A DNA stretch of 11,417 bases from Promethearchaeota archaeon (GTDB lineage: Archaea; Asgardarchaeota; Lokiarchaeia; Sigynarchaeales; SOKP01). The notes under the pieces were generated by a model. The model was not told the origin of the DNA and ran no database searches. It worked only from the letters and a program-made list of their open reading frames with translations. The stretch lies in contig JAEOTL010000473.1 in assembly GCA_016839845.1 (NCBI GenBank), positions 1 through 11,417 of the forward strand, given 5' to 3'. Both the position numbers and the translations under genes were made by a program. Shown piece after piece: positions 2,600 to 5,155 of this stretch; the stretch's first letter is position 1; the number at the start of each line of letters is the position of its first letter.

Positions 2600-2672
2600 A
2601 TGTGTCATATGGTGCACCCATTTCCTCAACTGAGCTCTCGTTTTTTTAGCTCAGCTTCATCAGTAAACACAT
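2600..2672 (-). ncRNA. Selenocysteine insertion element (SECIS) in the vhuD 3' UTR, kink-turn type
   Basis: The element begins 8 nt after the vhuD stop. The outer helix is AUGUGU (2672-2667) with ACACAU (2605-2600), 6 bp. The inner helix is AGCUGAGCU (2656-2648) with AGCUCAGUU (2636-2628), 9 bp with one G-U, capped by an 11-nt A-rich loop (seven As, then CGAG). Below it, G2658-A2626 and A2657-G2627 form tandem sheared G-A pairs, and G-A-U (2661-2659) is a 3-nt bulge over CU/GG pairing. That is the layout of a kink-turn, the core that L7Ae/L30/SBP2-type proteins bind in eukaryotic SECIS elements. A small AUGG/CCAU hairpin (2621-2609) branches from the 3' side and makes a three-way junction. 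The GAA 5' of the upper stem also fits archaeal SECIS elements. It should direct Sec insertion at the UGAs of vhuD and possibly hdrA. The fold was done by hand. Confidence 0.85.
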
Positions 2673-2679
2673 TAAATTT

Positions 2680-3141
2680 TTAAGCCTTTGCTTTCGCATC
2701 AGCTTTTCCTTTTTTCGGTGTGTCGCCTTTTGGTCGTAGCGGACTTGGTCCTAATTTGCGAATAATCCCGTCTATTTCTGTCGCGTCTTTTTGAAATTTT
2801 TGACCTTCAGCTGCGGTACAGTAAATAATTCTAATCCGTTCTGGACTGACTCCGACGGCCTTCAGAATTTCTTTTGTGTATTCGACTTGGCGATATGCAT
2901 GGTAGTTTCCAGTCTCATAGTCACACTCTCCTGGGTATCAAGCGTTTATGACTACTCCGTCAGCTCCCCTTCCAAATGCTCGCATAATTAAGTCAGAGCC
3001 AACACGTCCAGTGCATGGGACTAACACATTACGAATTGATTCCGGATATTGGGCACGAATAGTTCCTGCCATATCTGCAGAACCGTATCCTCATTTCCAG
3101 CAAGCATATACAATGATCTTAATATCGTTTTCTTCTGCCAT
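2680..3141 (-). CDS. vhuD: VhuD/MvhD selenoprotein: [2Fe-2S] electron-transfer subunit linking to HdrA, two Sec codons
   Basis: Reading two TGA codons as selenocysteine gives 153 residues from ATG at 3141 to TAA at 2680-2682. The sequence follows MvhD/VhuD throughout: YACWKUGYGSADMAG (C14, Sec17) replaces the family's C-N-W-C motif; VPCTGRV (C43) matches the MCSGRV-like strand; NAUYPGECDY (Sec68, C73) matches the GCHPGDCHY motif; then CTAAEGQKF and LGPSPLRP near the end. In methanogens this subunit binds a [2Fe-2S] cluster and passes electrons from hydrogenase or formate dehydrogenase to HdrA. VhuD is a known selenoprotein in Methanococcus relatives. The C-terminus is lysine-rich. The gene starts 13 nt after the hdrA stop, with GAGGTG overlapping that region as Shine-Dalgarno, so the two are translationally linked. 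Conventional gene finders will miss it because of the TGAs. Confidence 0.93.
2938..2940 (-). other. Selenocysteine codon (UGA), VhuD residue 68
   Basis: TGA in frame 51 codons after the first VhuD TGA. It lies in NAUYPGECDY, where MvhD proteins have the first cysteine of G-C-H-P-G-D-C-H-Y. The matching sequence continues on both sides. Confidence 0.92.
3091..3093 (-). other. Selenocysteine codon (UGA), VhuD residue 17
   Basis: TGA in frame 16 codons after the vhuD ATG, at the second cysteine of the family C-N-W-C motif (here C-W-K-U). The downstream GYGSADMAG matches the family's YGGADLAG, so the frame is intact. Confidence 0.92.
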
Positions 3142-3154: not shown

Positions 3155-5131
3155 CTATTCCCCCATTGGTAGTAATTCGTCTACTAATGCCATAAATTGA
3201 TCATCTCTGAAATAGGTTAATTCAATTGCCTTTGATGGGCAAATAGCAGCACAAGTTCCACATCCACGACATTTAATTAAATCCACGACAATATTCCCTG
3301 TCTCGTTTACGGAAATCGCACTATATGGGCATGATTCTATGCATTTGTAACACTTAGCGCACCTTTCATCTGAAGGGGTAGCACGTATTAATTCCATAGT
3401 GTATTCTCCTTTACCCATAGGTATTCCTGCTGTAGATGCTGCTCCTTTTGCTTGACTTACTGCCTTGTCGATTTCTTTCTGGCCTTGAGCAGAGCCTGCA
3501 AGGTAGATTCCCATTACTTTCGTACTAATTGGATCAAGACGAGCATGGAATTCTTTTAAGAATCCATCTGGACTTTTCTCCATATTTAGTACTCTGGCAA
3601 TTTCTCGAGTTCCTTTTGATGGGAGAGATGCTGGTGATAATACAACCATGTGAACTTCCATCGTGACGACCGAATCAGTTCCTACAGGTTCATATTGAAC
3701 AATTAGGTTTTTCGTCAAGGGGTCTTCTTTTATGCTTCCAACGAGTCCTTTAACAAACAAAATTCCCGCATCACGAGATCTTCTGTAATATTCTTCATAG
3801 TCTTTTCCAGCACATCTCATATCGATGTAATTGACAACAATCTCGGAATCTGGATATTCTGATTTGATAAGCTTTGAATTCTTAAGAGATAAATTGCAAC
3901 AAATAACACTACAATGAGCGTTTTTATTAATGTCTCTTGAACCAACGCAATTGATAAACAATATCTTCGAGGGTCGCTTTCCGTCAGATGGTCGTTTTAA
4001 GTGACCAAACGTAGGACCATTTGGAGCAAGAATTCTCTCAAGTTCTATTTGGTTAATAACGTTATCAAAGATACCATAACCATAATCGTCACCTTCGTAG
4101 AGGTCCCAACCTGTAGCAACTATTATTGTTCCTATATCGAGCTCTATAATTTCATCTTGTTGGCTAAAATCGATTGCTGATTGTTCACAAGCATCAACAC
4201 AAGCAAAACATTCTACGCAAATATCTCTATCGAGTTGAGACACTGCTGGTACAGCTTGAGCAAAAGCAATGCCAATTGCCTTCCGAGCAGATAAATGTTC
4301 ATCGAAGTAATTACTAGTGTACACTGGACAGACTTCTGTACACGTTCCACACCCAGTACATTTATCTTCAAGAACAAAACGGGCTTTTCTTTTTACCTGT
4401 ACTCGAAAATTCCCGATGTAACCATCTACATTAACAACTTCACTGTAGGATAAAATTTCGATATTAGGATGACGATTTGTTTCTAACATCTTCGGGCCGA
4501 GAATTCAGATGGAGCAATCATCCGTTGGGAAAGTCCTGTCAAGTTGCGACATTCTTCCTCCAATAGTAGTATTCTTTTCCACGAGATATACTTTGTAGCC
4601 TGCATCACCAAGATCGACTGCGGCAGATAAACCTGCAATTCCCCCGCCAATAACCAAAGCTACTGGATTAACGGGAACTGTTTTAGTAGGTACATCTTCA
4701 AGCAATCGTGATCTAGAAATTCCCGCTCTGATAAGTTCAATCGCTTTTTTATTAGCTTTATCTCGGACATCTAGAGCTTGGTGAACAAAACTACAATGCT
4801 CTCTGATGTTGACGAATTCTAAATATCGTGGAGGGATCCCCGCTTCTGATAAGATTGCATGAAAGACTGGTTGATGGGTTTTAGGAGTACATGCTGCGAC
4901 AACGATTCTTTCTAATTTATTTTCAACGATTTGTTCTTTTATATAGCCAGATCCGCCTTCAGTTCACATACTAAGATATTCAAATGCTTTTACGCCTTCA
5001 AGTTTATTTAATTCTTCAACGATTCCTGGAACGTCCAGTATTCCTGCGATATTAATACCTCACCGACACACAAACACACCGACTATTGATTTTTCAGCTT
5101 CGTTACTTTCTTTGGTCTGTTTTCCAGACAA
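3155..5131 (-). CDS. hdrA: HdrA selenoprotein, FAD/[4Fe-4S] subunit of a heterodisulfide-reductase-type complex, three Sec codons
   Basis: With three TGAs read as selenocysteine this is one 658-residue HdrA, the normal family length. The N-terminal Fe-S domain has VFVCRUGINIAG (Sec24) in place of C-x-C-G-x-N-I, EYLSMUTEGG (Sec56) in place of Y-M-C-S-x-P-G, and AACTPKTHQPVF and EHCSFVH as in known HdrA. The FAD site is VIGGGIAGLSAA (GGG about 162-164), and DDCSIUILGPK (Sec209) follows the flavin domain's first lobe. An inserted dicluster ferredoxin has C258/261/264/268 and C305/308/311/315; the C-terminal one has C591/594/597/601 and C621/624/627/631. HdrA is the flavin-based electron-bifurcating hub of Hdr complexes in the cytoplasm. 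The start is TTG at 5131 with AAGGTGA ideally placed; GTG at 5140 is the alternative (661 residues). The stop is TAG. HdrB and HdrC are not nearby. The Sec reading is strongly supported; the reaction is inferred from the family. Confidence 0.95.
4505..4507 (-). other. Selenocysteine codon (UGA), HdrA residue 209
   Basis: TGA within FPTDDCSIUILGPK, at the second cysteine of the family's D-C-S-x-C motif. Reading stays in frame into the ferredoxin part. A standard reading wrongly ends a 66-residue fragment here. Confidence 0.95.
4964..4966 (-). other. Selenocysteine codon (UGA), HdrA residue 56
   Basis: TGA within EYLSMUTEGGSGYI, where HdrA proteins have Y-M-C-S-x-P-G-Q-x-L-I. The frame is continuous with the other two TGAs: 32 codons from the first and 153 from the third. 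Confidence 0.92.
5060..5062 (-). other. Selenocysteine codon (UGA), HdrA residue 24
   Basis: TGA within VFVCRUGINIAG, replacing the second cysteine of the HdrA N-terminal C-H-C-G-x-N-I motif that ligates a [4Fe-4S] cluster. GINIAG directly after it matches the family. Confidence 0.93.
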
Positions 5132-5141
5132 ATATTTCACC

Positions 5142-5155
5142 TTAGGTTAACCTAA
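5142..5155. repeat. Perfect 14-bp palindrome in the hdrA leader
   Basis: TTAGGTTAACCTAA is its own reverse complement. It lies between a GGAGG (5156-5160) and the hdrA start codons (GTG 5140, TTG 5131). As RNA it could form a 5-bp hairpin with a UUAA loop, which would bring GGAGG close to the start. As DNA it could be an operator for a dimeric regulator. No function can be proven from sequence. Confidence 0.6.

Follow-up and report, generated by a model that had tools for sequence, protein, structure and literature searches.

A branched, eukaryote-like SECIS candidate with a conserved side hairpin behind Asgard selenoprotein genes

How do Asgard archaea mark the UGA codons that they read as selenocysteine, and does a hairpin that branches off the presumed signal belong to it? 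Both questions are raised by an 11,417-nucleotide (nt) stretch of DNA from a Promethearchaeota archaeon (contig JAEOTL010000473.1), referred to as the window, in which a 73-nt element at positions 2600-2672 follows two neighbouring genes, hdrA and vhuD. We consider it likely that this element is an Asgard eukaryote-like selenocysteine insertion sequence (SECIS), folded as a three-way junction of an outer helix, a kink-turn arm and a hairpin with a G-Y loop, which, from its place in the 3′ untranslated region (3′ UTR) downstream of hdrA and vhuD, directs selenocysteine insertion at as many as five UGAs. Elements of the same position and architecture recur behind unrelated selenoprotein genes. 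Since several of these unrelated genes have the side hairpin in their signals, it is probably a working part of the SECIS.

Fold and gene context of the element

The minus strand of 2600-2672 folds with a minimum free energy (MFE) of −19.5 kcal/mol, against a shuffled mean of −11.9 (standard deviation 2.6; z −2.96), and none of 200 shuffles is equally stable. The plus strand folds too, if less convincingly (z −2.32; 6 of its 200 shuffles reach its stability), and the element, which the original prediction had placed here without naming a strand, is assigned to the minus strand because of its gene context. The MFE fold alone yields the outer helix (6 base pairs (bp) and one U-G), the inner helix (9 bp, including one G-U) and the side hairpin AUGG-GUGCA-CCAU. 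With the tandem G-A pairs, the GAU bulge and the 11-nt A-rich loop, all the structural parts first described for the element are present in the minus-strand fold:

2600..2672, minus strand: complete branched element, likely SECIS, 73 nt, three-way junction (fold z −2.96, 0/200 shuffles; three closely similar orthologues)
2666..2672, minus strand: outer helix, 5′ strand AUGUGUU (minus-strand fold; the 159 accepted elements all have an outer helix, since acceptance required one, and its letters differ)
2600..2606, minus strand: outer helix, 3′ strand GACACAU (minus-strand fold)
2657..2663, minus strand: kink-turn, 5′ strand CU-GAU-GA, comprising C-stem CU, 3-nt bulge GAU and GA (C-stem pair counts)
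2624..2627, minus strand: kink-turn, 3′ strand GA-GG, pairing with GA and then with CU (U-G, C-G) (C-stem pair counts)
2648..2656, minus strand: inner (upper) helix, 5′ strand AGCUGAGCU (fold; the upper helix covaries in A3, an alignment without the window)
2628..2636, minus strand: inner (upper) helix, 3′ strand AGCUCAGUU (fold; covariation in A3)
2637..2647, minus strand: apical loop AAAAAAACGAG, A-rich, 11 nt (minus-strand fold)
2609..2621, minus strand: side hairpin AUGG-GUGCA-CCAU (identical in the window and L001-L003; other clades and genes have different letters at this place)
2613..2617, minus strand: side-hairpin loop GUGCA with the conserved G-Y, here GC (GC or GU in 159/159 elements)

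The kink-turn letters (C-stem CU with GG, the bulge G-A-U, then tandem G-A and A-G pairs) show the features of a canonical kink-turn, namely a 3-nt bulge, tandem G-A/A-G pairs and a C-stem pair adjoining the bulge. The element also has the [A/G]UGA ... [G/A]A core at the base of the upper helix that characterizes Asgard eSECIS-like elements, the upper helix of 7-15 bp and the apical loop of 8-20 nt starting with adenines that characterize type I (here 9 bp and 11 nt, AAAAAAACGAG), and a place in the 3′ UTR behind a gene with an in-frame UGA. The two genes upstream are:

2680..3141, minus strand: vhuD (FlpD/MvhD family), in-frame TGA at residues 17 (3091-3093) and 68 (2938-2940)
3155..5140, minus strand: hdrA, in-frame TGA at residues 27 (5060-5062), 59 (4964-4966) and 212 (4505-4507); start codon uncertain

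The vhuD product matches PF02662 (E 1.6e-40), and its top NCBIfam match is F420_non_VhuD, under that model's cut-off; the hdrA product matches the HdrA2 family at E 8.7e-226, under the family cut-off. The hdrA-like gene ends 13 bases upstream of vhuD and the element comes after the vhuD TAA, so that one element stands downstream of five UGAs, the most distant about 2.4 kilobases (kb) off. Presumably hdrA is served by the same SECIS as vhuD. In the excerpts of PMC11227280 (Huang, Xiao, Zhang 2024) on which we draw, as for all papers cited here, hdrA and frhD (vhuD) are neighbours and nearly all share one element.

Orthologues on three Lokiarchaeota contigs from metagenome-assembled genomes (L001-L003; 86-88% identity) carry the same element and keep both vhuD TGAs. 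All four sequences agree in every letter of the side hairpin, and the inner helix varies among them. VhuD paralogues in the orthologue genomes (56-59% identity) are followed by the same architecture in different letters. As for hdrA, the window and L001 have three TGAs and L002 and L003 have two, the middle TGA being absent.

Recurrence across Asgard genomes

Of 227 Asgard genomes, 207 gave a match when searched for VhuD (E 1e-25). We assembled 178 3′ flanks, comprising 130 of vhuD with a stop (the window included), 20 of small vhuU open reading frames (ORFs) and 28 of selD. The vhuD flanks are those of TGA-bearing hits among the matches listed; the 130 do not include vhuD_L125, which has no stop and contains runs of N, and G077:C86, G190:C510 and G177:C4 (other stops) were left out together with further TGA-bearing paralogues. 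The selD set joins 24 parsed loci among the TGA-bearing selD places listed with four more, second copies included. A PF00374 search (E 1e-30) matched 4 of the 227 genomes, and none of these matches is interrupted by a stop codon; the small vhuU ORFs came from a looser hydrogenase search of 28 genomes, the 20 ORFs being taken from 30 hydrogenase loci.

Our descriptor combines [AG]UGA, an upper helix and GA or AA with an outer helix and a side hairpin, whose minimum lengths are 4 bp and 3 bp, respectively. Of the 178 flanks, 165 contain it, against 11/178 and 16/178 when shuffled and 1 of 20 flanks of vhuD genes with cysteine (Cys-vhuD). With an energy cut (energy of −9 or lower and a side-hairpin gain of at least 1 kcal/mol), 160/178 flanks pass, against 2/178 and 3/178 shuffled and 0/20 Cys-vhuD; the passes divide into vhuD 117/130, vhuU 18/20 and selD 25/28. 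One of the 160 proved to be a tRNA (vhuD_L129) and was dropped, leaving 159 elements. Apical loops start with AAAAA in 67/160 and GAAAA in 21/160. The TGA of the core is itself the first in-frame stop after the gene match in 45 of the 159 parsed elements.

The C-stem pairs numbered −1 and −2 are not demanded by the descriptor. The −1 pair, the first beyond the kink-turn bulge, forms in 158/159 elements (partner shuffling: mean 76.5, maximum 99), and in 144/150 flanks when the core is picked by the upper helix alone. It shows many compensatory changes among the 159: the 40 window-clade elements have U-A (35) or U-G (5), 70/76 other vhuD and 18/18 vhuU have G-C, and 14/25 selD have C-G. The −2 pair forms in 117/159 (shuffled maximum 85) and the third is at chance level (64/159). 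From the −1 and −2 counts we conclude that the kink-turn of the core is canonical and that its C-stem comprises one or two pairs, reaching three in some selD elements. The original prediction had been staked on compensatory changes in related 3′ UTRs and on the presence of the element behind other Asgard vhuD genes; neither condition refutes it.

The side hairpin can be recovered independently of the full descriptor. When the core was picked without the outer or side helix, a hairpin of at least 4 bp lay in the next 26 nt in 147/150 flanks, against an average of 65.2 and a maximum of 80 in 200 shuffles. For covariation we used A3, an alignment made from sequence alone that holds 42 elements and comprises neither the window clade nor selD, because a wider sequence-only alignment (A2) did not bring the side hairpins of the window clade and the others into register. 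In A3, 83.3% of cells are paired and covariation is 0.588 (0.196 shuffled, at most 0.154 slid); the side helix alone gives 0.328 (0.162 shuffled, at most 0.153 slid), with changes on both sides in all six pairs, and kinship among the sequences inflates all these covariation figures.

R1, a covariance model built from A3 and hence trained with neither the window clade nor selD, was searched against 28 genomes, of which 24 were taken as selenocysteine (Sec) users (TGA-bearing vhuD, vhuU or selD) and four had no SelD match at E 1e-40. It matches 24/28 genomes, including 23 of the 24 presumed Sec users (G080 was missed), many matches being its own training elements. Three of the four genomes without SelD have no match and one has a marginal match (G010, E 0.008). 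The Cys controls gave 0/20. Judged by eye from the upstream DNA of 40 matches, 17 follow VhuD-like, HdrA-like, Prx-like or VhuU genes (8/20 and 9/20). In three weaker matches (L266, L270, L273) the core is present and the side hairpin is minimal at most.

Several observations weigh against the element being a branched SECIS common to these genes. Eighteen of the 178 flanks fail the descriptor, some without a plausible core and some as near misses, and because the sequences are related, the counts do not represent independent events. When each short segment from core to outer strand is compared with its own mononucleotide shuffles, 89/160 beat them at p<0.05, with a median p of 0.043. Two measures of the A3 side helix are weak, its count of double-change pairs being matched by 16/500 shuffles and its count of pair types by 36/500. 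R1 recognizes 0/11 window-clade sources, apart from one chance-like match (E 0.44) elsewhere in L002, and 2/15 selD loci, so that a sequence-structure model alone does not unite the subtypes; the window clade is therefore a diverged subtype in sequence. A Loki SECIS was nonfunctional in a methanogen (PMC11881835). Finally, PF01248 (L7Ae/L30e) has a match in 226/227 genomes, mostly with two copies per genome, and an extra paralogue as an SBP2-like binder was not seen, copies being alike in Sec users and others in a table judged by eye, where a diverged binder could be missed. With mostly two copies, either a ribosomal protein doubles as the binder, or the binder comes from another family or is too diverged to see.

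Relation to known SECIS elements and role of the side hairpin

Eukaryote-like SECIS elements in Lokiarchaeota selenoprotein genes were reportedly described by Mariotti et al. in 2016, as later papers retell. That Asgard SECIS elements have a core like that of eukaryotes and an A-rich loop is already published (PMC11227280), and their eukaryote-like nature is prior art. The type I Asgard eSECIS-like elements of that paper share with the window element the AUGA...GA core, an upper helix of 7-15 bp, an A-rich apical loop, the 3′ UTR location and the use of a single element for neighbouring hdrA and frhD (vhuD). The model in its excerpts spans core, upper stem and apical loop; the side hairpin and the C-stem, both present here, are unnamed there, and the internal loop and lower stem are described as having no highly conserved nucleotides, save family-specific lower-stem pairs in frhA and selD. 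A review citing the 2016 work (PMC9499178) gives the Loki SECIS a single apical loop, whereas the window element has two hairpin loops.

Eukaryotic SECIS elements (types I and II) have in common with the window element the kink-turn quartet after AU and the A-rich apical loop, but in the description of PMC11227280 they consist of two stems and one internal loop with no side hairpin. The methanogen eaSECIS is likewise archaeal, located in the 3′ UTR and equipped with a kink-turn-like motif; its GAA/A internal loop and G-C clamps (PMC9622424, PMC11881835), compared here by published description, are absent from the window fold. The first interpretation of the element as a SECIS with a kink-turn and a branched lower part thus holds up, while its claim that features of both domains are combined does not: the core is a plain kink-turn quartet, and a eukaryote-like core with no methanogen GAA/A loop leaves the mixed character unsupported. 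The side hairpin appears in neither the eukaryotic nor the methanogen model in the published excerpts. No SECIS family of Rfam matched the window (E≤5) or any of 20 sampled loci (E≤1). A side hairpin in Asgard SECIS is unnamed in the excerpts of PMC13188914, PMC11881835, PMC9622424, PMC8211752, PMC9312934, PMC9723677 and PMC2746813, and in the titles and abstract openings returned by literature searches. On present evidence the hairpin is an Asgard trait, the eukaryotic and methanogen forms being known here from published descriptions, and its novelty is limited to the literature just named.

In the mechanism we envisage, the arm, with its canonical kink-turn, helix and A-rich loop, would be bound by a protein of the L7Ae/L30e type, the G-Y loop of the side hairpin may offer a second contact for a recoding factor or the ribosome, and a single element would serve both hdrA and vhuD. 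We tentatively propose that Asgard SECIS elements possess two recognition sites, a kink-turn arm that was inherited by eukaryotes and a GY-loop hairpin that is read by an Asgard recoding factor or the ribosome and was lost in eukaryotes when SBP2 took over. GC is found in 148/160 side loops, against 50.2 expected from permuted loop letters, and the 11 true elements without it all carry GU, giving GC or GU in 159/159. Among 85 representatives, whose flanks have a median GC content of 32%, 79 have GC (27.8 on average and at most 40 under permutation) and all 85 have GC or GU. If the proposal is true, the missing archaeal SECIS-binding factor could be sought by way of the side hairpin. With G-Y in all 159 loops, across three unrelated gene families, the hairpin offers a specific bait and well-defined mutations. 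The Asgard SECIS, so far published as a single-loop forerunner, would then have to be redrawn, and eukaryotes would have a simplified form of it.

The main rival, somewhat unlikely in our judgement, takes the side hairpin as a structural spacer only, which closes the junction and sets the geometry of the arm while its loop goes unread. The freedom of the stem sequence suits it, the letters differing throughout between clades (AUGG/CCAU, CCAU/AUGG, CCUAU/AUAGG, CCCC/GGGG, GCCGC/GCGGC), as does the short gap from the hairpin to the outer strand (0-3 nt in 152/159). Yet a spacer leaves unexplained why every loop carries G-Y and why GC stands so far above its permuted expectation among the representatives. 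More doubtful is a tertiary role, in which the hairpin contacts the kink-turn arm inside the SECIS and is not a site for a protein or the ribosome. A conserved loop beside a kink-turn, which folds the arms together, would fit such a contact, and some side loops read CGCAA or UGCGA, which we take to resemble GNRA shapes; however, side-loop length varies from 4 to 7, and no conserved GC complement was seen by eye in the apical loops.

It is very improbable that the element as a whole regulates the hydrogenase operon through its kink-turn, under control of the L7Ae type, and is not a SECIS. Its core is indeed a canonical kink-turn, and L7Ae control of translation in archaea is reportedly, to go by a title, the topic of a published paper, but the element follows functionally different genes that share an in-frame UGA (vhuD, vhuU, selD, Prx-like, HdrA-like), and R1 finds nothing in three of the four genomes without a SelD match (E≤1e-40). 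The least credible reading makes the side hairpin an unrelated 3′-end feature, a terminator or messenger RNA stabilizer, as its 3′ UTR location might suggest; it sits inside the element, between the core and the outer 3′ strand, behind vhuD, vhuU and selD alike, and this position, together with the Cys-vhuD flanks (0/20, or 1/20 with no energy cut), led us to reject a terminator.

Short TGA-bearing ORFs near SECIS-like elements

Other R1 matches stand behind short ORFs with a TGA, and a few have no clear ORF. At L261, L265, L275, L290, L299-L301, L302 (two TGAs) and L304, the short ORF before the SECIS-like element has an in-frame TGA and, judged by eye, a hydrophobic stretch; L275, for example, reads ...DDDCF-TGA and L290 DDDDCF-TGA. 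Three elements of this kind are found inside 1.3 kb of G002:C99. We regard these ORFs as candidate new small selenoproteins. At L276, L295 and L298, small CxxC-rich ORFs end in ...FK-TGA with TAA or TAG as the very next codon, a SECIS-like element following after 25-36 nt, and their products possibly have selenocysteine as the last residue, or the codons are plain double stops. An ORF with two adjacent in-frame TGAs (...HAD-TGA-TGA-ADVM...) precedes the weaker, short SECIS-like match at L273. In the window itself, the palindrome TTAGGTTAACCTAA at 5142-5155, directly upstream of the presumed hdrA start, is a possible regulator site.
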